Shown here one piece after another: positions 4,668-34,121 of a DNA stretch of 36,255 bases. Position 1 is the stretch's first letter. Every line of letters begins with the position of its first letter. The translations under genes and the position numbers were made by a program. The stretch comes from Candidatus Gastranaerophilales bacterium. GTDB lineage: Bacteria; Cyanobacteriota; Vampirovibrionia; Gastranaerophilales; Gastranaerophilaceae. The DNA is taken from positions 1-36,255 of the forward strand of contig CALUQQ010000010.1 of the NCBI GenBank assembly GCA_944322955.1, in the 5' to 3' direction. A model generated the notes under the pieces. That model was not told where the DNA came from. It ran no database searches and worked only from the letters and a program-made list of their open reading frames with translations.

Positions 4668-4963
4668 ATTTTGATTTTATAATAATATTTAAATAAATGC
4701 AATTAGCAGAGTTTATAATTTTCTTGCCAAAAATACCAAAAAATGATAAAATTCAAATGAAAATGATGAAAAGGAGAAAAAATGATTAAAAATGTTAAGT
4801 CTGGAAATCTCGGGGGGGGGCGACCCTTTTAACCGCTTGTAGCGCGGGTTTTGGGGGTATTATTTGGGAAAAGTTACTAAGATACTATGATACTAAGGCA
4901 CTAAGAAGTAACAGTCGGGTTAGAAAACCCGGTATTCAATATGTCATCCTGAGGTGCCAAAGC
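4668..4963. other. Gene-poor stretch: promoter, orphan 16-codon ORF, G9 tract and repeats
   Basis: It contains a plausible promoter (TTGCCA 4724-4729, 17 bp, TAAAAT 4747-4752), a strong SD (AAGGAG 4771-4776) and ATG 4782. That ATG opens only 16 codons (MIKNVKSGNLGGGRPF), the last ones crossing a run of nine G (4812-4820). Further on are short repeats built on TACTAAG (about 4875-4906), a small hairpin CGGGTT-AGAA-AACCCG (4916-4931), and the first copy of TGTCATCCTGAGG. The composition is clearly more GC-rich than the surroundings from about 4811. Confidence 0.6.
4724..4784 (+). promoter_or_regulatory. Promoter, SD and start codon ahead of G9 tract
   Basis: TTGCCA-17-TAAAAT, then AAGGAG five nt before ATG 4782-4784. 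The quality of these signals suggests a real gene start, but the frame closes after 16 codons. Confidence 0.5.
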
Positions 4964-5048
4964 GTGAGCGAGCAGAGGCGTTGCGAGCGAACAAGAGAGG
5001 CACGACAACACACTAAATATTGGTGGAGCTTGTCATGTCATCCTGAGG
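4942..5048 (+). repeat. Direct repeat TGTCATCCTGAGG, two copies
   Basis: Copies at 4942-4954 and 5036-5048, inside a GC-rich patch of roughly 4811-5200. Similar TCATCCTGAGG...GAAGGATC strings are familiar as dispersed intergenic repeats in bacterial genomes. Here they are translated in frame ahead of a prepilin. Confidence 0.6.
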
Positions 5049-5902
5049 CGATAGCCGAAGGATCACATAAAATGCGACCCCGCCCCCGAATTTCAAACAC
5101 TCGCAAGCTCGTGTTGAAATTCAACCCCGCCGTGGTGGGGGTAAGCCCCTTGTGCGAAGCACACAGAAAACACTTATTCCTCCCTATTACCTTATTCACT
5201 TCAAAGAAAGCTGCCTTCACCCTCGCAGAAGTCTTGATAACACTCGGCATAATCGGTGTTGTGGCTGCGATGACAATTCCGACATTAATCGCGAATTACA
5301 AAGAGAAAGCCTTACAGAATCAGTTTAAGAAAAGCTATGCCATGATAAATCAGGCGTTATTGTCTGCGCAGAGCAGCTTCGGTTATATCCCGAGATGTTA
5401 TTATGCTTATGGCAGTGCCTCTGTTACAACAACATCCGAGTGCCTTGATTTAACCGAGAAATTTTTGTCAAACCTTAAAGTAATAAGAATTTGTGAAGAC
5501 CATGCTTATGAGAAAGGTTGTATTCCTGAATACAAAGGTATAGATGATATTTTAAAAGAACAGCATAAGGATGATGAGGATTATGATGAAGAATACTGGC
5601 AGGATTACGCAACGCATAATTGCGGCGGATTTAACACGTCAGAGATATTAAATAACAAGAAGGTCTATATACTTGCAGACGGTACAATAATGTTTTTTTA
5701 TAGAGAAAATAGCAGCGGATGTCTAATTACAGCTATTGATGTAAACGGTATGAAAGGTCCGAATAAATCAGGATATGATTTATATGCAGTAAGGCTTAGC
5801 TCCGACGGAAATCGTTTCAGGTATGAATCTGACGGTTGTCTAGCTGCGGAAGAAGGCGGTAGAAGCTTTAATCAGATGTATAATGCAGCATTTAAAAAAT
5901 AA
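4964..5902 (+). CDS. Type IV prepilin-like (pseudopilin) protein with odd extended leader
   Basis: The reliable part begins at about codon 85. There the cleavage site is KKAA/FTLAEV, with the conserved Glu5 and a long hydrophobic N-helix (LITLGIIGVVAAMTIPTLIA). A variable globular domain of roughly 200 residues follows. This is the class III/IV N-methylation signature handled by PilD prepilin peptidase, although -1 is Ala rather than the usual Gly. Several Cys pairs in the globular part may form disulfides. The start is doubtful. GTG 4964 lacks a supporting SD, the next ATG is 5071, and the first ~80 codons read through a GC-rich repeat patch. The normal short leader seems displaced. A terminator follows directly. 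The target (pilus, secretion pseudopilus or surface fibre) is unknown. Confidence 0.8.
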   Translation: MSEQRRCERTREARQHTKYWWSLSCHPEAIAEGSHKMRPRPRISNTRKLVLKFNPAVVGVSPLCEAHRKHLFLPITLFTSKKAAFTLAEVLITLGIIGVVAAMTIPTLIANYKEKALQNQFKKSYAMINQALLSAQSSFGYIPRCYYAYGSASVTTTSECLDLTEKFLSNLKVIRICEDHAYEKGCIPEYKGIDDILKEQHKDDEDYDEEYWQDYATHNCGGFNTSEILNNKKVYILADGTIMFFYRENSSGCLITAIDVNGMKGPNKSGYDLYAVRLSSDGNRFRYESDGCLAAEEGGRSFNQMYNAAFKK

Positions 5903-5904
5903 AT

Positions 5905-5935
5905 AAGCGGCTACTTTGGCCGCTTTTTATTTTTC
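5905..5935 (+). terminator. Rho-independent terminator of the prepilin gene
   Basis: Stem AAGCGGC (5905-5911), 7-nt loop, GCCGCTT (5919-5925), then a T-rich tail. Confidence 0.85.
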
Positions 5936-16522: not shown

Positions 16523-17226
16523 AAGAATAAAAAGATATTATGCCTTTTCTTGCTGGTTTTATTTTTTTTCTGGCAGGGAATATTAAAGCATTTGGCATAG
16601 AAGAGGAAGAAGATTTATTTAAACCTGTTGAAATAAAAGACGGTATGGCGCTTTCCATTTCTGATTGCGTTGCCGCTGCGTTTCAAAATAGTCCGAAAAT
16701 TCGGCGTCAAAAATATAATCTTGATGTTGCAAAAAGTAATGTCGGAATTGCAAAGTCGCAATATTTTCCGGTAATAAGCGCAGGCGCTGGTTTTTACAAT
16801 GAGAATAATTCCGATAACTTATATTACAACTCGCATTACCGTGAGCTTCCTGACATCGGGATAACTATTAACAAGCTTGTTTGGGATTTCGGAAAGACAA
16901 CAGCTTATATAAAAATGGAAGAGTTTTACAAAATCGGCGCGGAATACGAGTTTATGGACAGTTTGTGTTCTACTTTGTTTGATGTGAAGCTTAAATATTA
17001 TAATTTTTTAAAGTCGAAAGCAATGCTTGAAGTTGCCGAAAATAATTTTAAAATAAATGAAAATTTTGTTAAATTGGCAAAAGGTAAAAATATAACTGAC
17101 ATAACTACCGCCGAATTGAATCTCAGTAATGCAAAAGTTAAATATATAGAGGCTAAAAATAATTACAAAAATACAAAAAATTATTTAAAAATTCAACAAA
17201 TCAATCGCTTTAATATTGATTTTTAA
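16520..17226 (+). pseudogene. TolC-family outer-membrane efflux protein, frameshifted and half-length
   Basis: From ATG 16520 the frame gives an ideal lysine-rich signal peptide (MKNKKILCLFLLVLFF) but closes at 16598. One extra base in the T8 run (16562-16569) would join it to LAGNIKAFGIEEEED and the long frame. That frame, open to 17226, carries the first OEP repeat: SISDCVAAAFQNSPKIRRQKYNLDVAKSNVGIAKSQYFP, a beta region, then the coiled helices. A TolC monomer needs two such repeats (about 430-480 residues). Here the protein stops after about 220 and only 68 bp remain before the next gene. It is either a remnant or, if translated from ATG 16540, a half-protein of unknown use. Confidence 0.7.
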
Positions 17227-20487: not shown

Positions 20488-21066
20488 TTATCCTTTTCTA
20501 ATTCTAAACCAGGTTTTGTCCTTATGATGCAAAACTGGGGGGGGTCCTCCTGATAAGCCGATTTTATAACCTGCAAGATTTACAAGTTGTTCTGTTTTTT
20601 CGTTATAATTCCAAAAAGGATATACGAAAAATTGGAACCCTTCACAATCGAGTTTTTTAAGCCAATTAGGGCATATAATCTCCTCAAGAATTTCCTTATC
20701 TGTTTGTAAAGTCGTAAGATCTTTATGGGATTTGCCGTGATATTGCAGGTGGCCGCCTTGTTTTACAATATTTTTTAAGTCATTAGTATTTAAAAAATAC
20801 CCGCTATTGTCCGATACAAAATCTGCTACTATACATACATCAAACGGATAGTGAAAAAATTTTAATATCGGCAAGGCATATTTTAAAAAGTCTTTTGTCC
20901 CGTCATCAAATGTTAACGCGACATTTTTTTTGCTTTTTGGATTATAATTATTCAGATGTACAACTTTTTTGCATACGAGTTTTAACATATCAAGAAAAAA
21001 TTTGTATGGCGTTATTGTTATTTTGTCATCTATGTTATTTTTTATTCGATGATAAGTATATATCAT
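20488..21066 (-). CDS. Polysaccharide deacetylase (NodB-type)
   Basis: 192 residues from ATG 21064-21066, which overlaps the radical SAM stop as ATGA. It opens MIYTYHRIKN. The NodB metal motif TFDDG (catalytic Asp plus metal-binding Asp) lies near residue 52, and the second motif reads HGKSHKDL, giving H-x-x-S-H in place of the usual HSxxH. It would remove N- or O-acetyl groups from the glycan. It is slightly short, and its last 15 residues follow a run of eight C (20537-20544 on plus as G8), where one lost base would replace the end by about 55 unrelated residues. The current frame gives the usual TWFRIRKG ending. Confidence 0.85.
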   Translation of the reverse strand: MIYTYHRIKNNIDDKITITPYKFFLDMLKLVCKKVVHLNNYNPKSKKNVALTFDDGTKDFLKYALPILKFFHYPFDVCIVADFVSDNSGYFLNTNDLKNIVKQGGHLQYHGKSHKDLTTLQTDKEILEEIICPNWLKKLDCEGFQFFVYPFWNYNEKTEQLVNLAGYKIGLSGGPPPVLHHKDKTWFRIRKG

Positions 21067-22259
21067 TTGCCGGAACCGCATTTTATTTTTATTTTTGCAC
21101 CGCAGACAGTTATAACTTTTCTTTTTATATTGTTTGAATAACGGTTTTTGACAGAAAATATGTTTTCCAGTAATGAATTTTTATTCTTATTCGGATAATA
21201 AGGTATACAGCCTTTCGGATAACGTTGTTGAACTTCTTGATAATCCGGGTTAGTTTCATAAAGTTTTGTGTTGAATGCTTCCTTTATAGTTTCCTTTAAC
21301 CATTCTCTTCCGTCTGGCATGATACGGTTGCGAATCGAAGCATATGTTGGTGTATTAAGTTGTGGTTTGTCGCCCCAAGCTAAATATGCATGACAATTTA
21401 CGCAATGTTTGGATGGGCAATTGGGTCCAATTGGAATATTAGGTATTTCTTCGTCTGCATTTTCAAAGATATTTTTTTCAAATGGTGAAATATCTGTACT
21501 AATGAAAGAACATGGTCTTAAAATACCATTAATTAAATCTATTGTATATGAAAAATATCCGGCAAAGCAATAAGTTTTATCGTTACTGCTGTGCCAATAA
21601 TTTAATCGGATATTAAACATTTCTGAGTTAAATTCATCCCATATTTTTTTATATTTACGTCTGTTTAATTTTGTACAAATTATATTAGGTTTATGGCTGT
21701 CACGTAAAACAGTAACATGAGGCAAAGCTCCGAAATTTTCCATTGAATATTGTTTAATCTCATCCAGATAAGGTATATAATCATCGGATGCACCCATTTC
21801 AATTGTAAAACTTGCAGGTGAATTGAGAATTTTTTTTACATTTTCTGCATATACATTTAAAAGGTTTTTTCTTTTTAGTTCTAAATAATGAAAAGAAAAT
21901 TTGAAGAATAATCTGGAAAGATATTCTTGGGGAAGTTGTAAATATTCATCATATTTTTGGCTTGCAGTTCCGTTACTTACAATGTTAACAACATGGCCTT
22001 GTGCTAAAAGATCTTTTACAATATTAAATAACTCAGGATACAGAGTTGTTTCTCCTCCCGCACAAAAATTTATAATTGCATTGCCACCCAGCCTTTCTTT
22101 TGAAAGGCATTTTTGGGTTATGTAATCTACGGGATATTTTAATGGCGGAATTGGTTCTTGAATTTCTTTTTTATTGACGTAGCAATAACTGCAATTTAAA
22201 TTACAAACGCTCATAGGAATTGAGAAATCTATAAATTTTACATAAGTTTTTTTATTCAT
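21063..22259 (-). CDS. Radical SAM protein of the glycan operon
   Basis: 398 residues. The SAM [4Fe-4S] motif CNLNCSYC lies near residue 19, then GGETTLYPEL and VSNGTA as in the classic radical SAM barrel. Further Cys (CSFISTD, CPSKHCVNCHAY) look like a SPASM/twitch-type auxiliary cluster region. The final ~40 residues are the shared IFSVKN...GAKIKIK tail. It would carry out a radical modification, perhaps of a sugar or of a peptide; the substrate is unknown. It sits between the GT2-pyruvyltransferase and the deacetylase, overlapping the latter by 4 bp. Confidence 0.88.
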   Translation of the reverse strand: MNKKTYVKFIDFSIPMSVCNLNCSYCYVNKKEIQEPIPPLKYPVDYITQKCLSKERLGGNAIINFCAGGETTLYPELFNIVKDLLAQGHVVNIVSNGTASQKYDEYLQLPQEYLSRLFFKFSFHYLELKRKNLLNVYAENVKKILNSPASFTIEMGASDDYIPYLDEIKQYSMENFGALPHVTVLRDSHKPNIICTKLNRRKYKKIWDEFNSEMFNIRLNYWHSSNDKTYCFAGYFSYTIDLINGILRPCSFISTDISPFEKNIFENADEEIPNIPIGPNCPSKHCVNCHAYLAWGDKPQLNTPTYASIRNRIMPDGREWLKETIKEAFNTKLYETNPDYQEVQQRYPKGCIPYYPNKNKNSLLENIFSVKNRYSNNIKRKVITVCGAKIKIKCGSGK

Positions 22260-24241
22260 TATTTTATTCCCCTTTCATTTTTTATCATTTCAAACATATT
22301 ATCAAATTGTTTCTGCCATTCCGGATAATCAGTATCCGAAATCGTTTGGATTTTTTTTGCTGCGTCAGCTAATTTGTCAATATCTGTATCAATATAAATA
22401 ATGCTTTTGCAATCCTTTAGAAAATTTAAAAATTCTTTTAGTTTGTGATCTTGTGATTTTATTGCAATACACGGCGTTTTGGTTATGATGGAAAATATCA
22501 AACCGTGCAGTCTGTCGGTGATGACAAATTTGTGTTTGGCAAAGTTGTTTAATTGTTCTTCTACAATGTAATTTCTTTTGAATTTAGATATATATGATTC
22601 AGAATATAAATTTTTGGTATAGTCAACCGGTATGTTTAAATTTTTGGTAAAATTCATTACTTGGTTGTATTGTTCCTCATTCATCGCGCTTTCATCACCT
22701 ACATCACGGATGCAGCAAAGTACTCCTTCACGTTCAAAATTTTTATTATAAGGATATGAACATACTATATCTGGGAATAAAAAGCTTTTTGTGTTTGGAA
22801 AATATTCTTTTGCGTATTCAAGGCTTTTTGGATCTCTGTTCATAATAGTTACATTCGGATGGCTTTCATAGATTTTTCTGCTTATGGCAATTTCTTTGAG
22901 CCCTTGTCTATCTTCTGTAAAAAATATTGACTGCGGGAATATAAATATAGGATTTTGCGGAAAATTTTGTACAACTTTTCGTCTTAATTCTTCTTCCCCA
23001 AGATATCTGTTACCAAAGTTTCCTCCGCCTGAGCACCATATCATATCGTATGGGGTCATTACGTATTTTAAGTATTTTAAATTATTATCAAATTCCCATG
23101 TGGAAAATTCTATAATCTGGTATTCAGGAAAGTATTTTTCGGCGAACTTTATTTCAGCTTCCGCAATTGCGGCATCGCCTATATTGTTGTGGCGTGATGT
23201 CCCGAATAAAAATATTTTCTTATCCTTCACCGGAACAAAATTGATTGTTGAATAAAAAAGCTGCTCAATTTCGCTGGTTTTGTCAATAATATCTGTTTCT
23301 CGATCACTTTTTACTTTAAATTTAAATTTTATTCCGAATAAGGTTAAAATTTTTCTTTTACCCCTTAGTGTATAAATATTTTTTGACGAAAAAATTTTTT
23401 CCGCTAAAGTTGTTTTTACAGTTTCATCAAACGGTTTGTTCTCTGATATCATAGTATTTATTGCTTCATTTATTTTGTATGATTCACTTTCAAGATTTTG
23501 TAAACTTTTTAAATTTGCCTTATTGTAAGGCAGAAGTGTGTTTAGTAATTTTATTTTTGCATCACGTGTTAATTTTAAACCGAGATCGCAAATTTTATCG
23601 GTTAGATTTGTATTATGTATACGGTATTTTAAAAGCGGTTTGTTTAAAACGGCAAGTTTTGTCATTAGAACGGCTCTTGTCCATAACTCTTGATCTTCGC
23701 CTGCTGTATAATTTTCGTCATAGAAAAGATTATATTTGTCAAAAATTTCCCGTTTGAACATTACGGTCGGATGACAAAATACGCATGTGTTTAATACGTT
23801 TACCGCTCCTATATAAAATACTTCCGGTTTGTCTTCATAAAAGAATTGCAAAAAATATTTGTCCTTGCATTTTTTTTGAGATAATAATTCTGCTTTTGTA
23901 CCTAAAATGTCTATTTCGGGATGTTCTTTAAAGGTTTTTAATTGCTCCTCAAATCTTTCCGGAAAAGATATGTCATCAGCGTCCATTCGTGCAATATATT
24001 CCCCTTTAGATTCTTTAATCCCTGTATTTAATGCTGCAGCAAGATTTTTACGCGGTCCGTTAATAAGACGAATTCTTTTATCGTCATAGGTATTAATTAT
24101 TTCACGTGTTTTATCGGTTGAATTGTCATCAATAATTAATAATTCGAAATCCGTAAATGTTTGATTAAGAATACTTTCGACAGCTTCTTTTAAGTATTTT
24201 TCAGCGTTATAAGTCGGCAGTATGACCGATAGTTGTACCAT
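22259..24241 (-). CDS. GT2 glycosyltransferase fused to polysaccharide pyruvyltransferase
   Basis: 660 residues in two catalytic parts. Residues 1-230 are a GT-A family 2 transferase (SVILPTYNAEKYLKEAVESILNQTF, IIDDNSTD, MDADD metal motif, GEDQELW). Residues 280-311 are the shared IFSSKN...GIKFKFK module. Residues 335-650 are a polysaccharide pyruvyl transferase domain (FGTSRHNNIGDAAIAEAE, GGGNFGNR, PQSIFFTEDRQG, DRLHGLIFSII). The second domain adds a pyruvate ketal from PEP to a sugar. The fusion suggests that a sugar is added and then ketalised by one protein. The stop overlaps the next ATG by one base. Confidence 0.92.
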   Translation of the reverse strand: MVQLSVILPTYNAEKYLKEAVESILNQTFTDFELLIIDDNSTDKTREIINTYDDKRIRLINGPRKNLAAALNTGIKESKGEYIARMDADDISFPERFEEQLKTFKEHPEIDILGTKAELLSQKKCKDKYFLQFFYEDKPEVFYIGAVNVLNTCVFCHPTVMFKREIFDKYNLFYDENYTAGEDQELWTRAVLMTKLAVLNKPLLKYRIHNTNLTDKICDLGLKLTRDAKIKLLNTLLPYNKANLKSLQNLESESYKINEAINTMISENKPFDETVKTTLAEKIFSSKNIYTLRGKRKILTLFGIKFKFKVKSDRETDIIDKTSEIEQLFYSTINFVPVKDKKIFLFGTSRHNNIGDAAIAEAEIKFAEKYFPEYQIIEFSTWEFDNNLKYLKYVMTPYDMIWCSGGGNFGNRYLGEEELRRKVVQNFPQNPIFIFPQSIFFTEDRQGLKEIAISRKIYESHPNVTIMNRDPKSLEYAKEYFPNTKSFLFPDIVCSYPYNKNFEREGVLCCIRDVGDESAMNEEQYNQVMNFTKNLNIPVDYTKNLYSESYISKFKRNYIVEEQLNNFAKHKFVITDRLHGLIFSIITKTPCIAIKSQDHKLKEFLNFLKDCKSIIYIDTDIDKLADAAKKIQTISDTDYPEWQKQFDNMFEMIKNERGIK

Positions 24242-24244
24242 TTT

Positions 24245-25354
24245 TTACCTCCAGCTAATAATATAAAATAAGTTAAATAGTTTGATTTTACTACTATAAC
24301 TCTTTTTGAATTCAACTAATGGTATTGTATCAAAAAGCCAAACTTTAAAACCGTTTGGGTAGTTTTTTATTTTTAAAATAGGAACTATATGGAATAGTTT
24401 TACCCATATTTCTTCTTTTCTTCCATGAAATTTTCCGTGCCGGTTATTCTTTAATTCCTCAAAAAATTCTTTTAAATATTTATCCTTAAAGTAATAAAAA
24501 GTAATACCGGATAAATCAATTTCGTTTAGATAGTTATGGGCTTTTGTCCAAAATACATTTAGGTCTTCTTTGTTTTGGATATTTTCATAGTTCCATAATA
24601 GGTTCATAACAGTAGCGTATAAAAAACCTTCTTTTAATTCGTTCCAGATTTTAGGGTATTGTGTGATTTTTGAATAAGCATATTTTTCAGAATTTAAACC
24701 GTCTGTTGCGTTTACATTTTTTGTGGATTGAGTGGTATTTTTCTGATAGTAATAGTACAGAGGTTCTTTTACTATAATATATTTATTCGCTTTGTATAAA
24801 GTTTCATAATGATATGGGGCATCAATAAATGATTGTTTGGTTTCAATCATTTTTATATTATTTTCAATCAAAAATTTTTTATTGTATATACAGCTCCATA
24901 CAGAAGGTTGCCAGCTTAAAAACCATGAATTATCATAAATTGAGAAATTTTCAGGTATTGATTTGCCAAGCGTTACAATTTTTTGTTCTTTATCATATAT
25001 AGTAAAAAATCCGCATTTTACAACATCGGCATTATATTCCTGGGCTTTTTTGTATAATTTTTCATACATTTCAAGGTTACACCAGTCATCAGCTTCAACA
25101 ATTCCGATATATTCACCTGATGCAATTTCTAAGCCTTTATTGAATCCTTTACCGTAACTACCAGGATTTTGTAATATTATTATGCGATTGTCTTTTTGGG
25201 CATATTCTTCGCATATTTTGTTACAGTTCTCCGGTCCGTCAGTTGCAAGAATGATTTCAATATCTTTTAATGTCTGTGAAATTATGCTGTCCAGACATCT
25301 TCTTAAATATTTTTCCACATTATATATAGGTACTATTATTGATATTTTAGGCAT
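24245..25354 (-). CDS. GT2 glycosyltransferase
   Basis: 369 residues. GT-A fold family 2: SIIVPIYNVEKYLRRCLDSIISQTL at the start, ATDGPEN, SYGKGFNKGLEIASGEYIGIVEADDW with the EADD metal motif near residue 92. The C-terminal 50 residues hold three short repeats of the pattern KLF-h-h-P-h-h-K-h-K (LFHIVPILKIK, LFDTIPLVEFK, LFNLFYIIS). It transfers a sugar from a nucleotide donor. The acceptor is not predictable. GGAAA precedes the ATG, which overlaps the upstream gene's end by 8 bp. Confidence 0.92.
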   Translation of the reverse strand: MPKISIIVPIYNVEKYLRRCLDSIISQTLKDIEIILATDGPENCNKICEEYAQKDNRIIILQNPGSYGKGFNKGLEIASGEYIGIVEADDWCNLEMYEKLYKKAQEYNADVVKCGFFTIYDKEQKIVTLGKSIPENFSIYDNSWFLSWQPSVWSCIYNKKFLIENNIKMIETKQSFIDAPYHYETLYKANKYIIVKEPLYYYYQKNTTQSTKNVNATDGLNSEKYAYSKITQYPKIWNELKEGFLYATVMNLLWNYENIQNKEDLNVFWTKAHNYLNEIDLSGITFYYFKDKYLKEFFEELKNNRHGKFHGRKEEIWVKLFHIVPILKIKNYPNGFKVWLFDTIPLVEFKKSYSSKIKLFNLFYIISWR

Positions 25355-27053
25355 TTATGTTTCCTTTTTGTTTTTTTAAATAAAATGGACTTAGTCTGTC
25401 CCATTTGACATTACGTCTGATGATTTTTGCAGGATTACCGGCTAGTAATGAATTTTCTTCTGTAAATTTTTTTGTGACGACAGATCCGGCACCTACTATA
25501 GAACCTCGTGGAATTTGAGCATTTTTTAATAAAATTGTCCCAGCTCCAATCCAACAATTTGATTGTATTAAAATAGGAGTTTTTATTTCATTCAACATCA
25601 TACATCCGTTTGTTTTGGTCGTATTACTTATATCTATTATGCTATGACCATCGCTGGGGAAAATTTTTATATAGCCGTCAAGCATGCAATCGTCTTCTAT
25701 TAATAATTGTGAATTTTCGTCAAGATTGCATATACCTCCAGCAATAGTTGTATTTTTGCCGATTTTTAATACTTGATTTTCTCCATATTTACACCTTACA
25801 TAAAAATTAGAAATCCCCCATGAAGTGTTGGGTAATATTTCAAAAAAAGCATTTTTGGAATCTATGTCAAAGAAGCAGTTTGAAAATTTGTAAGGTCTAT
25901 GAATTTTTATTGTGTTATTTGTACCTGAAATTTTAATCTTTAAACCTTTTATTCTCGCTTTGCTGCACAGGTTGTGTTCTACTCCGTTTTCATCAACTAT
26001 AATAATTTTATTCGTTCTTTTTTTTAGCTTAATTTTAATGCCGCATATGGTTATAATTTTATGTGGATTTGCTATGTTCGGACTGTTTTTTATTGAAAAA
26101 ATATTTTCTAATATACTGTTTTTACTCCAGAATTTTTCATATGGAGTTTGAATGATTTTAATTAATATATCTTGTGAAACAGGGATGTTTTTGTCATTCA
26201 AAAATTTTCTTGCCATTTCATGACCTATTTTTTTATATTTTTCAGAACCGTTATTTTGTACATATAACCAGCAGATGTAGTAAGTTGTGAAAAAAGCTTC
26301 TTCACGTTGTTTAAATAAAGCGTTTGCTTGTAAGAAATTATAGAATAGTTCACCTATTTTCATATGGTCTAATACATTTTTTCCTATTTCGCCGTTAAAA
26401 GTTTGTGCCATAAGGGAGTTTTCTCTGCGTAAATAATTGTACAATTTGTCTTGTATACAATACATATTTTTGCATACTGACCAGTATGCCCAGTTAAAAT
26501 AAGCGTCTTCGTTGTTTAAATTTTCCGGGAAACGTATTTTATATTTTTGGATTATTTCTTTTTTATATAGTTTATTCCAAACGGCGACATTTATATTTCC
26601 GTAAACATCATTTGTCAGCGGAATTTGACCGTTATAATTTATTGTAAAATATTTTTCATCTTGATATTTTAATTTTTTATTCTCTTTTCCTTCAAAAATA
26701 ATATTAGTCCCGCATTGTACAATATCTATATCCGGTGTTATAGCATTATACATTTTGGCCAAATATTCAGGTTCAATCCAATCGTCACTGTCTACAAAAA
26801 CTATATATTCCCCTTTTGCAATATCAAGTCCTGCGTTTCTTGCGCCGCCAAGTCCGTTTTGGACACCTTTTATTAAAGTTATTCTGTTATATTTTTTAGC
26901 ATATTCTTTGCAGATTTTATCATCTTTTTCAGGCCCATCAGAAATAAGAATGAGTTCAAAATCCTGAAAAGTCTGGGCGATGATTGAATCTAAACATTTA
27001 GAAAGATATCTTGCAACATTATAAACTGGCACAATAATAGTTATTTTAGGCAT
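25347..27053 (-). CDS. GT2 glycosyltransferase fused to hexapeptide-repeat acetyltransferase
   Basis: 568 residues. Residues 1-230 form a family 2 transferase (IIVPVYNVARYLSKCLDSIIAQTF, VDSDDW). Residues 313-346 are the shared IFSIKN...GIKIKLK module. From about residue 375 on there is a left-handed beta-helix O-acetyltransferase of the WcaF/maltose-acetyltransferase kind, with irregular hexad repeats, then CWIGAGTILLKNAQIPRGSIVGAGSVV and LLAGNPAKIIRR. A sugar may be added and then acetylated by the same polypeptide. The domain order parallels the GT2-pyruvyltransferase in the same operon, with the same module as linker. Confidence 0.92.
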   Translation of the reverse strand: MPKITIIVPVYNVARYLSKCLDSIIAQTFQDFELILISDGPEKDDKICKEYAKKYNRITLIKGVQNGLGGARNAGLDIAKGEYIVFVDSDDWIEPEYLAKMYNAITPDIDIVQCGTNIIFEGKENKKLKYQDEKYFTINYNGQIPLTNDVYGNINVAVWNKLYKKEIIQKYKIRFPENLNNEDAYFNWAYWSVCKNMYCIQDKLYNYLRRENSLMAQTFNGEIGKNVLDHMKIGELFYNFLQANALFKQREEAFFTTYYICWLYVQNNGSEKYKKIGHEMARKFLNDKNIPVSQDILIKIIQTPYEKFWSKNSILENIFSIKNSPNIANPHKIITICGIKIKLKKRTNKIIIVDENGVEHNLCSKARIKGLKIKISGTNNTIKIHRPYKFSNCFFDIDSKNAFFEILPNTSWGISNFYVRCKYGENQVLKIGKNTTIAGGICNLDENSQLLIEDDCMLDGYIKIFPSDGHSIIDISNTTKTNGCMMLNEIKTPILIQSNCWIGAGTILLKNAQIPRGSIVGAGSVVTKKFTEENSLLAGNPAKIIRRNVKWDRLSPFYLKKQKGNINA

Positions 27054-27066
27054 TTGTGTCCAACCT

Positions 27067-28254
27067 CTACTTTGATTTGTATTCTGCTACGGGAATGAAT
27101 CCAAACAAATAAAATTTTATTTGTCTTGAGTTTTTCTGTTTTACCTTAATAAAAGGTAATATATTGTACAATTTTATCCAATATTTTTTGTAGCTTTTCT
27201 GGGTGATACTCATTTTTATAAATAGTATGTATATATTCCCGATTATATTGTTTTGTTTTGTAAAATTCTTATTCACTAAATATTTGTCCAGTAAGCTAGG
27301 GTCTTTTTTAATTTTTATTAAAAAATTCTTATCCCAAAGCCGGAGATATTTAGATTCGTTTATTTCTTGTTCAGTAATATAACTAAGGTTCTCTTTTAAA
27401 AGTTGTAAATCATTTAAAGAAAGACAAGGTTCAATTTCATTCAATTTTTGAAATGTATTGGAGTATTCTTCGTTTAAATTATAACTAGCAAAATATGGGT
27501 AAAGTTCCTGATATTTTTTTGCGACTAATTTGTGTAACTCATTAAATCTTCTTATTCGAACAGAAAGCTTAAAGTTAGCCGCTGTTATTTTACTTATCCA
27601 AGTACGATGATTATAAAACGGCTTGTTAAGCCAAGCAATTTTGTCAGTATTTAATAATGAATCTATCTTGAATATGTGGTCAACAAAAGGATCTTTGTCA
27701 GTTGAAAATTTAATATATTCTTTTTTAATATATTCTGTTTTGTATATGCAACTCCAAATTGATGGGTGAATTCCCATTAGAATAGGATTCTCTTTAATTG
27801 AAAATAATTTATTTTCTGATATATTTTTAACAGAGTCTATAAAGAAACATATTTTGGTAACTTTATCTGATTCAAAATATTCATAATAAGGAGTTTTTAC
27901 AACATCAGCGTCAAGTTTTTTAGCGTATTCATACATTTCTTCTAACATCGTTGGTTCAATAAAATCATCAGATTCAATTATTGAAATATATTCACCTGAT
28001 GCAATATCAAAACCTTTATTTACCGAAGCGCCATAACTGCCGTTTTTTTCATGGATAGTAATAATTCGAGGATCTTTTTTTAAGCCGCTTTCGTACATAT
28101 CGGCAATTGCACGACAAGCATCCAAGTCTCCCTCATCGACTAAAATAACTTCAATATCTTTCAATGTTTGGTTTAAAATGCTATCAACGCATTGCATTAA
28201 ATATTTTTCTACTTTGTATATTGGCACAATAACTGATACTTTAGGTCTAGCCAT
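27067..28254 (-). CDS. GT2 glycosyltransferase
   Basis: 395 residues. Family 2 transferase: SVIVPIYKVEKYLMQCVDSILNQTL, DEGDLDACR, NGSYGASVNKGFDIASGEYISIIESDDF. The metal motif is ESDD. The C-terminal tail has two KL(Y/F)-h-h-P-h-h-K-h-K units (LYNILPFIKVK, LFGFIPVAEYK). It is closest in its first 100 residues to the operon's first GT2 (32993-34099), sharing DEGDLD and NGxYGAS, so the two probably arose by duplication. AAAGGAAC precedes the ATG, and the start overlaps gmhA by 8 bp. Confidence 0.92.
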   Translation of the reverse strand: MARPKVSVIVPIYKVEKYLMQCVDSILNQTLKDIEVILVDEGDLDACRAIADMYESGLKKDPRIITIHEKNGSYGASVNKGFDIASGEYISIIESDDFIEPTMLEEMYEYAKKLDADVVKTPYYEYFESDKVTKICFFIDSVKNISENKLFSIKENPILMGIHPSIWSCIYKTEYIKKEYIKFSTDKDPFVDHIFKIDSLLNTDKIAWLNKPFYNHRTWISKITAANFKLSVRIRRFNELHKLVAKKYQELYPYFASYNLNEEYSNTFQKLNEIEPCLSLNDLQLLKENLSYITEQEINESKYLRLWDKNFLIKIKKDPSLLDKYLVNKNFTKQNNIIGNIYILFIKMSITQKSYKKYWIKLYNILPFIKVKQKNSRQIKFYLFGFIPVAEYKSK

Positions 28255-28834
28255 AAATTAGTTCCTTTCTATTTTCAATATTTTGATTTATCAAAATGTC
28301 ATATATCATATGGCAAAAAATCATGTGAATATCTTCGGTTATTTGCATGTTATTAATGTTTGCATTGACAGAATATTTTGCAATTTTTTTCAAATCCCCG
28401 CCGTTATAGCCTGTCAGGCCTATGGTTAATCCGTTATGTTCGTTTGCGTATTCTATCGCTTTTAAAACATTTTTTGAATTCCCGCTGCCGGATATTCCGA
28501 TTACCATATCGCCTTCTTTGAAAAAGTTTTTTAAGGGTTCTACAAATATATTCTCATAGCTTACGTCATTTGCGTAAGCCATCATTGTTGCCACATTGTC
28601 GTTTAGGCAAATCATTTTGAACTTTTTATCCAGTCCGTAACTCATGCCTTTATTAAAATCGCAGCAAAAATGGCTTGCTGTTGCCGCAGAACCGCCGTTT
28701 CCTAGAATAAAAATTGTCCGGCCTTCATCTCTTACCTGTAAAAGTAATTTGATGAATGTGTCAATTTCTTTTCTGTCAAGGTTGTCTATGCAGTTTTGCA
28801 AACGGCTTAGATAATTGTTAATCCCTTCTATCAT
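28247..28834 (-). CDS. gmhA: Phosphoheptose isomerase GmhA (SIS domain)
   Basis: 195 residues, the usual size. SIS fold with ILGNGGSAATASHFCCDF near residue 45, where the Ser of GGSA contacts phosphate, and ISGSGNSKNVLKAIEYA near residue 112. It converts sedoheptulose 7-phosphate to D-glycero-D-manno-heptose 7-phosphate in the cytoplasm, the first step to GDP- or ADP-heptose. AGGAG lies ahead of the ATG. The ATGA overlap with hddA shows coupling. With HddA and HddC-GmhB beside it, it belongs to the GDP-D-alpha-D-heptose route and not the ADP (LPS core) route. Confidence 0.94.
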   Translation of the reverse strand: MIEGINNYLSRLQNCIDNLDRKEIDTFIKLLLQVRDEGRTIFILGNGGSAATASHFCCDFNKGMSYGLDKKFKMICLNDNVATMMAYANDVSYENIFVEPLKNFFKEGDMVIGISGSGNSKNVLKAIEYANEHNGLTIGLTGYNGGDLKKIAKYSVNANINNMQITEDIHMIFCHMIYDILINQNIENRKELIYG

Positions 28835-29835
28835 AATTCGCTCCTGTATAATTTTGCTTTGCTGTAATGAATTACATTTGTCCCTTTGTTATCAAATTTG
28901 AAATCTATTTCTTTTAAATCTTTTAAAGCCCGTCGGACTTTTGTTCTATGTTGTTCTTCCACGTAAAACAATAAAAAGCCGCCGCCGCCGGCTCCTAAAA
29001 GTTTGCCTCCGCCTGCGCCGTTTTGCATTGCTAAATCGTAGTAATAGTCAATATCCGGATTTGAAATGCCGTTTGCCAGTTCTTTTTTGTACATCCAGCC
29101 GGCATGTAGAATTTCGCCCATAGCGTCCGTGTTGCCTTTTAAAAGTTCTGCTTTTAAATCTTTTGACAATTGAACCATTTTATGCAAATTATTAATTTTT
29201 GCCTGGTCGTTTGTTGTATTTTTCTTCTGCTCGGCTAAAATGCTTCCTGCAGCTCGAGTTTTGCCTGTATAAAACATTAAAAGATTTTTCTCAAGGACAT
29301 GATAAGCATCTGTCGGCAGATATAATTTTTCTACATCCACGTTCCCGCATTTATGAAATTGTATAAAATTTAATCCGCCGCATGCACACGCATATTGATC
29401 CTGTTTGCCTATAGGCTCTTTCAAATCTTCTATTTCAATTTCACAGGCCTCTTTTGCAAGATCTTCTTTGTTTTTGTAGTTGTCTGTATAAACATTACAC
29501 AGATTTATAAGCCCAACGGTAAATGCTGAAGATGATGCAAGACCCGTTCCCGACGGAATATCAGCACTTGAATTGAAATCTACACCTGCTATACCGTATT
29601 TTTTGAATACTGTTTTTATAATTGGATGCTGAATTTCATCAACGGATTTGACCTGCTCTGTTTTGGCATATTTCAAAAGATATGCATTTTCGTCAAAATA
29701 CGGGTGCATTGAAAGATAAATATATTTATTTATGGAAACGGAAAGTACCGACCCGCCGAATTTTTCATAGTAATTTTTTAAATCGCTTCCGCCGCCTGCA
29801 AAACTTATTCTAAATGGTGTTCTTGTTATTATCAT
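28831..29835 (-). CDS. hddA: D-glycero-alpha-D-manno-heptose 7-phosphate kinase HddA (GHMP)
   Basis: 334 residues, GHMP kinase. It opens IITRTPFRISFAGGGSDL, has the ATP loop DIPSGTGLASSSAFTVGLIN near residue 92, and the C-terminal glycine-rich motif GAGGGKLLGAGGGGFLLFYV. It phosphorylates the alpha anomer at C1, giving heptose 1,7-bisphosphate. The alpha choice commits the product to GDP-heptose. The stop of the SDR gene overlaps its start codon region by 4 bp (ATGA). Confidence 0.94.
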   Translation of the reverse strand: MIITRTPFRISFAGGGSDLKNYYEKFGGSVLSVSINKYIYLSMHPYFDENAYLLKYAKTEQVKSVDEIQHPIIKTVFKKYGIAGVDFNSSADIPSGTGLASSSAFTVGLINLCNVYTDNYKNKEDLAKEACEIEIEDLKEPIGKQDQYACACGGLNFIQFHKCGNVDVEKLYLPTDAYHVLEKNLLMFYTGKTRAAGSILAEQKKNTTNDQAKINNLHKMVQLSKDLKAELLKGNTDAMGEILHAGWMYKKELANGISNPDIDYYYDLAMQNGAGGGKLLGAGGGGFLLFYVEEQHRTKVRRALKDLKEIDFKFDNKGTNVIHYSKAKLYRSEL

Positions 29836-30746
29836 ATCAGATTTTCCTCTCTTAAAATCTTTAATAACCCGTCATAGAGCGAAACTTTTGGGTCCCAATT
29901 AAAAAATTGTTTTAATTTTGAATAATCACAATATTCTATAGATGATTCGTCATTGCGTTTGCGGTCATCTATTACTTTTATTTCAAGTTTTCGTCCAAGC
30001 ATATTTTCTATGTTATTTAAAATATCTCTCACAGAATTAGCCCGGCCTGTTCCGACATTGAATCTTTCCAAATTTTGTTTATATGAACATGTATTATTTA
30101 AAATTGAAATCAAACAGTCTATCACATCTGAAATATATACATAATCACGTTTGTCATTAAGGTTTCCTAAAGGTATTGTTTGGTTTTCTTTAATATGTTT
30201 GATGATATGCGGAATAACAAAACTTTCTCTTTGACCATAGCCGTAAACATTGAAAATTCTTAATATCGTGAATTGATTGGATTTGTTATCCGGTGCATAA
30301 TAATCAATAAGTTGTTCCGTTAAATATTTTGATTTACCCAAGATATTGTCAGGTGTAATTATTATATTTTCCGATATAGGTTCATCATGTTTTCCGCCGT
30401 AGACTTTGCCTGTTGAAGTATAGATGAATTTAGCATTTGAACAATACTCATTGAATAAAGTAACTAAATTTTCCGTACCTTTAAGGCTTATTTCAAGAGT
30501 TTTTTGTTTTTGATTTACAATATCGTCATGAAAAGTTACGGAAGCTAGGTGGTACACGGCGTCAAAATGATATTGGATAAATAATTTTTTTAAAATTTCT
30601 TTATCTGTAATATCTGCTTGCATGTATACTACGTCTTTAATTTGCGTGTTGTGTCTGCCAATTCCGATGACTGTATTGCCCGGAGTTAGTTTTTCGCATA
30701 GTTTTCGGCCGATAAAACCGTTTGCTCCCGTAACTAATATATTCAT
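29832..30746 (-). CDS. Extended SDR nucleotide-sugar epimerase/reductase with altered active site
   Basis: 304 residues. Rossmann motif TGANGFIG at residues 7-14, and the Ser/Thr active-site strand FIYTSTGKVYGG. The catalytic YxxxK is changed: the expected Tyr is Leu in NILGKSKYLTEQ, while the Lys is kept. The C-terminal part (FNVGTGRANSVRDIL, FNWDPKVSLYDGLLKI) is normal for sugar epimerases. In context it should act on the 4-keto-6-deoxy product of the upstream dehydratase, or on GDP-heptose itself, but without the Tyr the mechanism must be different or weak. The start is coupled to the upstream gene by TAATG. Confidence 0.88.
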   Translation of the reverse strand: MNILVTGANGFIGRKLCEKLTPGNTVIGIGRHNTQIKDVVYMQADITDKEILKKLFIQYHFDAVYHLASVTFHDDIVNQKQKTLEISLKGTENLVTLFNEYCSNAKFIYTSTGKVYGGKHDEPISENIIITPDNILGKSKYLTEQLIDYYAPDNKSNQFTILRIFNVYGYGQRESFVIPHIIKHIKENQTIPLGNLNDKRDYVYISDVIDCLISILNNTCSYKQNLERFNVGTGRANSVRDILNNIENMLGRKLEIKVIDDRKRNDESSIEYCDYSKLKQFFNWDPKVSLYDGLLKILREENLI

Positions 30747-31735
30747 TATTGACCTCTCAGCTGGTTATTTTTGACTTCGTTTCTCCAATAATCCAGAACA
30801 AATTCAAGAGTTTCGTCTATTTTGTATTTAATTTCCCAGTTTGTCAGTTTTTTGAATTTGCTGAAATCACCGATAAAGGTCATAAGTTCAGTTGGACGAA
30901 CTCTTGCCGGATCTACTTCTATTTTGATTACATCTTTTTTAGGTGAGTGAGAAATTAATTTTTTCAATAAAGATTCCATTGTGTAAATCTGATCTGTTCC
31001 GATTAAATATAATTCTCCGGAAACACCTTTTTCCATAGCAAGGAAATAAGCTCTTACGGTGTCGCGGATATCCGTGAAGTTGCGTGTTGCTGAAAGATTG
31101 CCCACTTTGATTACAGGTTCTTGAAGTCCTGCTTCAATGCAGGCTATTTGGTAAGCAAAAGATGCAATTGCGCCATGAATATTTCGTCTTGAACCTTCAT
31201 GGTTAAATGCTCTTGTTCTTACTATATCCATACCGTAACTTGCCTGATATGTTATGCAGACCATATCCTGTGCAGCTTTACTTGCAGCGTATGGGTTAAT
31301 CGGTTTGATTCTTGTTTCTTCCGTAATAGGTATCATATCAGCAGGTACATCGCCGAATTCTTCGGGTGTTGCACTTGTTAATACTCTTGCTTTGCAATTT
31401 GTTATCCGCATTGCTTCAAATAGATTAATCGTACCTATTGCATTTGTCTGCATATAAACTGCCGGCATGTTCCAAGAGGGTGTTACCCAGCTTAATGCTC
31501 CTAAATGATAGATTTGATCAGGTTTTGCAATATTTATTGCGTTGATTAAGCTTGTTTCATCTAATAAATCACCGTCTATTAATGTGATTTTGTCAAGTGC
31601 ATGTTGAATATTTTTTAAGCTTGAATTCATTCTTTTAAGTACAAATACTTTGTAATCGGTATTTTCCAGAATATAATCCATAAGGTGGCTTCCTGCAAAG
31701 CCGGTAGCGCCTGTGATCAATACATTTTTACTCAT
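30746..31735 (-). CDS. GDP-mannose-4,6-dehydratase-like enzyme (probable GDP-heptose 4,6-dehydratase)
   Basis: 329 residues, extended SDR. It opens MSKNVLITGATGFAGSHLMDYIL, has YHLGALSWVTPSW, the TSATPEEFG active-site segment, the catalytic YAASK (Tyr and Lys both present) and RAFNHEGSRR, a GMD-type substrate loop. True GMD acts on GDP-mannose. Beside a GDP-heptose pathway, the DmhA/WcbK type, which makes GDP-6-deoxy-4-keto-D-lyxo-heptose, is the better guess. That is inference from neighbours. No GDP-fucose synthase is next to it, but the following SDR may reduce or epimerise the product. Confidence 0.9.
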   Translation of the reverse strand: MSKNVLITGATGFAGSHLMDYILENTDYKVFVLKRMNSSLKNIQHALDKITLIDGDLLDETSLINAINIAKPDQIYHLGALSWVTPSWNMPAVYMQTNAIGTINLFEAMRITNCKARVLTSATPEEFGDVPADMIPITEETRIKPINPYAASKAAQDMVCITYQASYGMDIVRTRAFNHEGSRRNIHGAIASFAYQIACIEAGLQEPVIKVGNLSATRNFTDIRDTVRAYFLAMEKGVSGELYLIGTDQIYTMESLLKKLISHSPKKDVIKIEVDPARVRPTELMTFIGDFSKFKKLTNWEIKYKIDETLEFVLDYWRNEVKNNQLRGQ

Positions 31736-33005
31736 TTGTTTTTCCTTTCATAATTATTTCTATTGCTTGTAATAAATTTTTTGCTGTGTAATCGCTTTTT
31801 GAAATTTCGCCTATGGAAATTGTTTTGCAGCCTGCATTTTTGCCTGCTTCAATATCCCGGTTGCTGTCGCCAATCATCCAGGATGCGTTTAAATCAATAT
31901 TTAATTCTTCCGCCGCTTTTAAAAGCATTCCGGGTTTTGGTTTTCTGCACTCGCAGTCAATCTTTAATTCAGGGACTTCTCCTTCAAAGCCTTTATCCGG
32001 ATGGTGTGGACAGTAATAGATTGCGTTAACAAAAGCTCCTTCATTTCCCAAAAGAGTTTCCATTTTTTTATGTGTTTCTTCAACTTCTTCAAAAGTTACA
32101 AATCCTTTAGCAATCATCGGTTGATTAGTTACAACAACTGCCAGATAATCGCTTTTGTTGATTTGTTTTACGGCATTTGGAACACCTTCCAGCAGTGTAA
32201 AATTTTCAACTGTCGGGTTGGTATCCATATTTTTATTCATTACGCCGTCACGGTCTAAAAATATGCAGGGGCGTTTGTTTTGTTTGTTTAATCTTGCAAC
32301 TTTACCGGAGATAAAATCTTGTTTAACTTTTTCAAATCTTTCGGCAGTTCCCATATCTTTTATGTATTCTGGTGTTTTATAAGCATATAAAATTTCTCCG
32401 CGTTTTACTATTTCCGGTAATATGTTTTTGCCGAAATCTTGAGAAATGCCATCTTTTATGAAATTAAAAATTCTATCAGAAAAAATATAAATAGCAGCAT
32501 TTACAAGATTTTGGTAATACTTATTTTTTTCATGCGGTTTAGGAAACATTTTTATAACTCTGCCGGATTTATCAATTTCCAATAAATCACTGTCATAAGG
32601 GTGGTCATTTGGATGTACAAGTGTTGTGCCGATTGAATCTGGGTGTTTTGCATCAAATTCAATAAAACTTTGTATGTCAAAATCCATTACCACATCGCCG
32701 TAAAATACCATAAATTTTTTGTCGAGTTTTCCTTCAAGAAGTTTCAGGCTTCCTGCTGTTCCAAGCGGATATGGTTCAACTATATGGTGAATTTTTACTC
32801 CGAATTTTTCTCCGTCACCAAAATATTCTTCAATAACGTGTGCAAGGTGACCGGAGAGAATAAAAAATTCTTTTGAGCCGTATTTTTTTGCAAGTTCAAT
32901 TTGATGCTCCAAAAGTGGTTTGCCGTCTATTTTAACCATTGGTTTCGGAATATCTTTTAGTCCTAATCTTGTACCTTTTCCGCCAGCTATTATTACAGTT
33001 TGCAT
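31728..33005 (-). CDS. hddC-gmhB: Fusion of heptose-1-P guanylyltransferase (HddC) and heptose bisphosphate phosphatase (GmhB)
   Basis: 425 residues from ATG 33003-33005, preceded by AGGTGG. Residues 1-230 form a nucleotidyltransferase (VIIAGGKGTRLGLKDIPKPMVKIDGKPLLEH, VFYGDVVMDFD, NLVNAAIYIF), which activates the sugar 1-phosphate with GTP. Residues 245-420 are a HAD phosphatase (FLDRDGVMN, VVTNQP, SWMIGDSNRDIEAGKNAG) with the GmhB zinc loop CPHHPDKGFEGE...CECRKPKPG. Together they turn heptose 1,7-bisphosphate into GDP-heptose. Usually these are two genes, so the fusion channels two steps in one protein. Confidence 0.94.
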   Translation of the reverse strand: MQTVIIAGGKGTRLGLKDIPKPMVKIDGKPLLEHQIELAKKYGSKEFFILSGHLAHVIEEYFGDGEKFGVKIHHIVEPYPLGTAGSLKLLEGKLDKKFMVFYGDVVMDFDIQSFIEFDAKHPDSIGTTLVHPNDHPYDSDLLEIDKSGRVIKMFPKPHEKNKYYQNLVNAAIYIFSDRIFNFIKDGISQDFGKNILPEIVKRGEILYAYKTPEYIKDMGTAERFEKVKQDFISGKVARLNKQNKRPCIFLDRDGVMNKNMDTNPTVENFTLLEGVPNAVKQINKSDYLAVVVTNQPMIAKGFVTFEEVEETHKKMETLLGNEGAFVNAIYYCPHHPDKGFEGEVPELKIDCECRKPKPGMLLKAAEELNIDLNASWMIGDSNRDIEAGKNAGCKTISIGEISKSDYTAKNLLQAIEIIMKGKTNE

Positions 33006-34099
33006 AACCACCTCGAGAAATCCTTAGCTATTAACTGTTTGCCAAATAGGATGACATTCAACTTGGATGTGTTTAAACGTATTGAAAAAAGTTTTTTACG
33101 CTTATCATGTCTTAATTTTTTTCGTATGAGCCTATCAATATAATCAGTGAATTTTTTCTTATCATTTATCAGTAAATTTATAATTTTCGGATCGACCTTT
33201 TTATAAAAATCTTTTGTCAGTTCATTTTTATTGTAGAATTCTCTAAATTCATCAGTGAATTTGTCAATAAATTGTTCTCTGAATTCAGGTTTAATCCGTT
33301 TTAAATTCCAAAGATATGTAAAATATTGATTAAGTAGTTTCGGTGTATTAATATATTCTTTTAAATCAGGATGGCTTTCTACAAAATTTGTAATTTCAGT
33401 GTATTCATCGCATATGGGAAAAACTTTCTCGCTGTTATTTACGGAAGATGATTCATTATCAGTTCTGTAATAAAGGTATGCCTTTGGCGTGAAAACAATC
33501 TTTTCGGCAAGAGACAGTGTTTTAAAAGCAAAAGAGGTATCTTGATAGCTTCCGCCTTTTGTTTCTAAAAATTTTATATTGTATTTTTTTAAGAATTCTC
33601 GTTTATAAATTGCACTCCAAATTGACGGTACTATTCGAAGAATTGAAGGATTGTTTTTGACGTTAAGGATTTTATTTGTTTTAACTTTTATAAGATTACA
33701 AGCTTTGATCGACTGGTTTTTAACAGTGTTGTAATTGTAAAAGTCGGATTTTACTATATCGGCGTCATTTTCTTTTGCTATTTTGTATAAATCAAGAAAC
33801 ATATTTTTGTCGACAAAATCATCGGCTTCAACAATTCCGATGTACTCGCCGGAGGCAATAGCAAAACCTTTATTCATGGATGCTCCGTATCCTCCGTTTT
33901 TTTCGTGGATTGTTTTAATTCGTTTGTCTTTTGCTTCATATTCATCAATTATTTTTCGGCATTCATCCAGGTCGCCTTCATCAATTAATATTATTTCAAT
34001 ATCCGTCAATGTTTGATTAATAATACTTTCTATACATTGTCTTAAATATTTTTCGACTTTGTACACAGGAACTATTATTGATATTAAAGGCTGTGACAT
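32993..34099 (-). CDS. GT2 glycosyltransferase, first gene of the glycan operon
   Basis: 368 residues from ATG 34097-34099, which has GGAGAG 8 nt ahead; an ATG at 34118-34120 would add seven residues. Family 2 start: PLISIIVPVYKVEKYLRQCIESIINQTL, DEGDLDECR, NGGYGASMNKGFAIASGEYIGIVEADDF with the EADD motif. The tail (LFSIRLNTSKLNVILFGKQLIAK) looks like a weak copy of the FSIK/GIK module. It likely starts the polycistronic mRNA, from a TTGAGA-16-TATAAC promoter overlapped by a palindrome. Confidence 0.92.
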   Translation of the reverse strand: MSQPLISIIVPVYKVEKYLRQCIESIINQTLTDIEIILIDEGDLDECRKIIDEYEAKDKRIKTIHEKNGGYGASMNKGFAIASGEYIGIVEADDFVDKNMFLDLYKIAKENDADIVKSDFYNYNTVKNQSIKACNLIKVKTNKILNVKNNPSILRIVPSIWSAIYKREFLKKYNIKFLETKGGSYQDTSFAFKTLSLAEKIVFTPKAYLYYRTDNESSSVNNSEKVFPICDEYTEITNFVESHPDLKEYINTPKLLNQYFTYLWNLKRIKPEFREQFIDKFTDEFREFYNKNELTKDFYKKVDPKIINLLINDKKKFTDYIDRLIRKKLRHDKRKKLFSIRLNTSKLNVILFGKQLIAKDFSRWLCKL

Positions 34100-34121
34100 T
34101 AAGTTGGCTCTCCGTTTCATT

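Follow-up and report, generated by a model that had tools for sequence, protein, structure and literature searches.

A prepilin locus carrying a nine-base G tract in the window, meaning the whole stretch of 36,255 nucleotides analysed here, is probably phase-variable, as part of a large family of type IV prepilin genes that slippage would switch in a gut bacterium of Candidatus Gastranaerophilales. The window corresponds to contig C10 of the host genome, a draft of 1.5 Mb (138 contigs, 78% complete), and the closest named relatives of its pilin, at 71% identity, belong to Candidatus Gastranaerophilales.

All features of the locus lie on the plus strand. A promoter-like site, TTGCCA-17-TAAAAT (4724–4752), matches the consensus at 10 of 12 positions with a TG ahead of the second hexamer. 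It is the top score of a sigma-70-like promoter scan that overall returned close to chance numbers (7 sites found vs. 4.4 expected), and the promoter that the preliminary description had placed ahead of ATG 4782 was recovered as a consensus match only. A Shine-Dalgarno sequence, AAGGAG (4771–4776), is found 5 nt upstream of ATG 4782 and paralogues are arranged alike. The present reading frame from this ATG, MIKNVKSGNLGGGRPF followed by the TAA stop at 4830–4832, spans 4782–4832 and would represent the OFF state. It ends after 16 codons, with the G9 tract (4812–4820), the proposed slippage switch, occupying codons 11–13. The tract, the perfect Shine-Dalgarno, the start and the early stop were all confirmed in the sequence as first described. 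The pilin frame runs without a stop from 4799 up to the stop codon at 5900–5902. One extra G fuses ATG 4782 to this frame, which bears out the fusion proposed earlier, and a G10 tract would accordingly be the ON form. The leader coding region (4821–5215) is followed by the predicted mature pilin, FTLAEVLITLGIIGVVAAM..., of 228 aa plus stop (5216–5902) and by a terminator-like hairpin with a T tail (5905–5925).

The N-methylation motif of the window pilin scores above the cut-offs of both PF07963 (22.9 bits vs. 21.2) and TIGR02532 (18.6 vs. 16.3). Known prepilin leaders measure 6–26 aa (PMC4471445). A short hydrophilic leader of roughly this length ending in Gly was not found here, as the fused window leader is about 145 aa long and ends in KKAA, placing Ala rather than Gly before the cleavage site. 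Short leaders, in part ending in Gly, are present in many of the paralogues and relatives. On the strength of motif and family context we would still place the window pilin with the type IV prepilins despite its atypical leader. The host draft genome contains 68 prepilin-type N-termini detected with PF07963, and the same genome has one match to an A24 prepilin peptidase and four to T2SSE-type ATPases.

Comparison of positions 4782–5230 with the host genome resulted in 64 matching stretches, and a tract-centred pattern search gave 40 matches; the stretches around matches were used for analysis of paralogues. A near-identical G-tract leader is present at about 30–40 places in the draft genome. 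As the element surrounding it recurs dozens of times, the G9 tract of the window is not there by chance. Most copies share a common design in which each has its own Shine-Dalgarno and ATG, followed by roughly ten poorly conserved codons, AATCTC-G9-CGACCCTTTTAACCGC and the leader, and conservation among them begins abruptly about five bases 5' of the tract. Viral contigs and contigs of named genomes, searched with a DNA pattern, gave no match to the exact element, and only short matches to the leader repeat were found elsewhere in the window. A second family in the host genome has C8–C9 tracts in the leader (MKTNTTKAVQ...PPP). Members of this C-tract prepilin family (L018, L034, L035, L037 and L292–L294) have had repeats inserted into them as well. 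Start codons could be assigned to 28 G-type leaders of the host genome, with tracts of 8–11 bases. 22 of these are one base short of the pilin frame, 3 are otherwise out of frame, 1 is broken and 2, L016 and L045, are in frame, both with G10.

In the taxonomic family of the window, G8+ tracts positioned 6–36 nt 5' of FTxxE codons were found in 49 of 191 genomes, representing 16 of 41 genera, and C8+ prepilin leaders in 20 of the 191. A reversed-pattern control gave 0 matches in the same genomes. Of 382 genomes sampled across the class, 74 had the G version, all within the family of the window except for two in another family of the same order; no G8+ leaders were seen outside the order in this sample. 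In G042, 44 of the 45 long G/C tracts (G8+, either strand) fall in prepilin leaders. In G121, 44 of 113 tracts meet the strict motif, and in other genomes likewise only a part does so; the leftover tracts within fetched regions belong mostly to prepilins with longer leaders. No report of pilus phase variation for Melainabacteria, Vampirovibrionia or Gastranaerophilales was found in the open-access literature searched.

Tract length and reading frame were then compared over 138 loci, nearly all in relatives, whose starts were assigned by rule. Tracts ranged from 8 to 15 bases, with 40 loci in frame and 59 and 39 in the two frames out, all lengths being taken from assemblies that are mostly metagenomic, with one genome per species. 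Homopolymer lengths of G runs in draft assemblies and databases can be wrong, as found for Bifidobacterium (PMC9187656). The pilin ORFs behind out-of-frame tracts are intact and as long as the others, with medians of 298, 292 and 245 aa for the three frame classes and only 2 short ORFs. Among near-identical locus pairs 5 of 18 differ in tract length and 13 are equal, so that length change between them is real but not extreme. Similar loci with unequal tracts include L131 and L138 (G10 and G11 at 93% identity) and L008 and L013 (G9 and G11). In genome G075, prepilin G tracts reaching as many as 22 G (L051, L078 and L135) are interrupted by scaffold gaps (NN), as if the assembler had met unresolved tract lengths. 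The proposal of a phase-variable contingency locus is well supported by comparison of these homologous tracts of 8–15 bases in paralogues and many related species, which are spread over three frame classes with pilin ORFs intact. As in contingency genes generally, a mononucleotide tract of unstable type lies in the reading frame near the start, a change of one base toggles an intact ORF, and length and frame vary between loci and between species.

One state nevertheless dominates in the genus of the window. Outside the host genome 37 of 66 loci of the genus have a tract nine bases long that is one base short, which together with the 22 of 28 in the host genome is a more uniform picture than unconstrained slippage might produce. 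The G and C families of the genus are alike in this respect, and the zero-frame stop often follows soon past the tract. Such a pattern might be expected of programmed recoding, in which the nine-base run would be fixed one base short and a set share of pilin would arise either from −1 ribosomal frameshifting or from a base added through transcriptional slippage. The same genus however also contains other registers and lengths (10, which is in frame, 11 and 8), and other genera have tracts of 10–15 bases whose commonest state is in frame in G121 (G12), out of frame in G009 (G13) and mixed in G042, where the modal G10 is in frame. A fixed recoding signal does not predict such variation. Register and length that recoding would conserve across the family both vary across genera, which makes recoding less likely, and no stimulatory structure is established, the fold of the leader being weak (z −1.6). 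We therefore regard recoding as unlikely. In Campylobacter jejuni, polyG tracts gain bases at lengths of 8–9 and lose them at 10–11 (PMC4085013), and by analogy a bias of this kind could hold the tracts of the window's genus near nine.

The leader between tract and pilin is packed with repeats that recur in many other prepilin leaders of the host. Between the tract and the FTLAEV codons, the pilin frame of the window leader contains no stops and each of the other two frames contains 8, and an open frame was seen in 0 of 500 dinucleotide shuffles. Among the loci of the host genome with an assembled pilin, 13 of 14 leaders can be read through from the tract into the pilin, and in no frame other than that of the pilin. 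Over these 14 loci (about 1,459 codons) 1 stop was counted in the pilin frame vs. 91 and 130 in the others, although the copies share repeats and are thus not independent, with inserts that vary in make-up (65–204 aa). Another 12 leaders are open as far as the contig end. Altogether 25 of 28 are open in the pilin frame while L003, L012 and L028 are broken. The frames indicate that the leader is translated and is kept open in the pilin frame.

The basic form of the leader is represented by two relatives in the host genome, L045 (19 aa) and L065 (22 aa), that have no repeats and retain the tract. A comparison with orthologous prepilins lacking the repeat had been suggested in the preliminary description, and the repeats were dropped as the main feature on account of these paralogues. 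Insertion of a repeat element into the leader had also been offered there as an alternative to phase variation. Repeats have indeed invaded the leader, but as an alternative this does not hold, since the repeats leave the pilin frame open and paralogues free of them keep the tract. In the copies seen, the repeats are mosaics confined to prepilin leaders. Rickettsia palindromic elements are partly inverted repeats that lie in protein-coding genes and keep the frame open. They are named in PMC10969869. The leader repeats resemble them in having inverted parts inside coding sequence with the frame open, and differ in being mosaics restricted to prepilin leaders in the copies seen. Within the window leader an inverted repeat, GAATTTCAA / TTGAAATTC, is found at 5088–5122. 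At 5151–5163 there is a short palindrome, TGTGCGAAGCACA, that reads GTGAGCGAAGCTCAC in the copies of other leaders, where the arms have changed and yet still pair, and that encodes the recurring leader motif (V)SEAH. RNA structure as the function of the leader was considered and dropped on account of the weak fold (z −1.6). The leader of L013 contains an in-frame tandem repeat (1452–1627) of 3.1 copies of a 57-base unit, a multiple of three, and its length may also change in steps of 19 residues.

If the repeats had brought internal start codons with them, pilin would be made at any tract length and the tract would be a relic at this locus. The start-codon scan detected an in-frame GTG (4964–4966) with an SD-like GAGGT at 8 nt and, correcting the preliminary description, an in-frame ATG within the repeat (5072–5074) preceded by an SD-like AAGGA at 9 nt, so that an internal start is possible in the window. 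Of the complete long leaders in the host genome, 8 of 13 have some in-frame start supported by an SD-like match of at least 4. L023, L024, L040 and L046 on the other hand have no start supported in this way, and short leaders almost never contain any start codon. In fact, of 176 short leaders just 6 contain any in-frame start codon between tract and pilin. In short leaders the ribosome must therefore pass over the tract, and internal initiation is nearly excluded for them. Furthermore, the frame above the internal starts is open back to the tract in the window and in 24 others of the 28 leaders, an openness that would be unnecessary if selection acted on an internal start. Bypass of the tract at this locus is on this evidence improbable.

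Decay of the gene following insertion of a repeat in the leader, or an artefact in which the homopolymer is off by one at every copy, finds some support in a 138-contig draft with contigs that break at these repeats and in 3 broken leaders out of 28 but is very improbable, given that the remaining 25 are open in the pilin frame, that the OFF ORFs of relatives are full length and that unequal tract lengths occur side by side within the same assemblies. The miscount of a single tract, as initially considered, cannot explain a series of loci.

The locus is best accounted for by phase variation. Slipped-strand mispairing during replication would alter the G (or C) run by one base and thereby decide whether the ribosome reads in the pilin frame. 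At G9, the length in the window, translation would end after 16 codons, and with G10 it would pass through the leader into the prepilin. Prepilin peptidase would then cut off the leader together with tract and repeats. As the run sits in this removed leader, the mature pilin should be the same whatever the run length. We infer slippage as the cause, switching within populations, cleavage of the long leaders and an effect on the cell surface.

The nearest precedent is found in Bifidobacterium breve and its relatives, whose loci for sortase-dependent pili contain an intragenic G tract. Slippage has been shown there and turns pili on, and in-frame lengths were enriched in mice (PMC9187656). Both cases concern a gut commensal in which a 5' G tract in a pilin precursor gene sets, by its length, the joining of signal region and pilin. 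Bifidobacterium breve however has LPXTG pilins at one or two loci per genome, while the genes described here are type IV prepilins, dozens of them in a genome, and carry the tract in a leader that would be cleaved off. G-tract phase variation of pilC1/pilC2 in Neisseria is a classic case (Jonsson et al. 1991, cited in PMC4471445; PMC5953494). There too a homopolymer lies within a reading frame, and its slippage governs whether a component of the type IV pilus is made, but PilC is an accessory pilus protein encoded in two copies, unlike the pilin subunit genes that carry the tract here. The polyG/polyC phasome of Campylobacter jejuni NCTC11168, likewise classic, comprises 29 loci whose tracts are at least 7 long (PMC4965091). 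Genome-wide G/C tracts of about 8–11 bases within reading frames are a shared property, but in Campylobacter jejuni they affect diverse genes whereas here almost all examined tracts are in one family, the prepilins. The present system is different from these precedents in gene family, number of loci and location of the tract in a discarded leader.

Further ORFs were noted elsewhere in the window. A candidate surface-sugar cluster on the minus strand (20488–34120), named by eye, includes several glycosyltransferases, a GmhA-like isomerase, a sugar kinase, two epimerases and a single 427 aa ORF in which a nucleotidyltransferase is fused to a HAD-type phosphatase. An ORF cut by the contig end (3–689, minus strand) has repeated NNSxFxxNxA-like motifs and looks like a beta-helix surface protein. 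At 16540–17226 there is a TolC-like ORF of just 228 aa, which is short for its family.

Taken further, the long G/C tracts of this order of gut bacteria might largely serve prepilins and form a combinatorial switch of the fibre coat. Tens of pilin genes would then turn on and off independently of one another, and tract and repeats would reside in the discarded leader, leaving the mature fibre unaffected. We give this reading an even chance. If true, uncultured gut Gastranaerophilales would hold one of the larger known single-family phasomes, aimed at pilins, and each cell would get a different fibre set. This would matter for how a commensal lineage, for which hardly any genetics exists, attaches in the gut and escapes phages and immunity. 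In each genome, gene callers would split dozens of pilin genes or give them wrong starts, and the state of each switch would be readable from existing metagenome reads.
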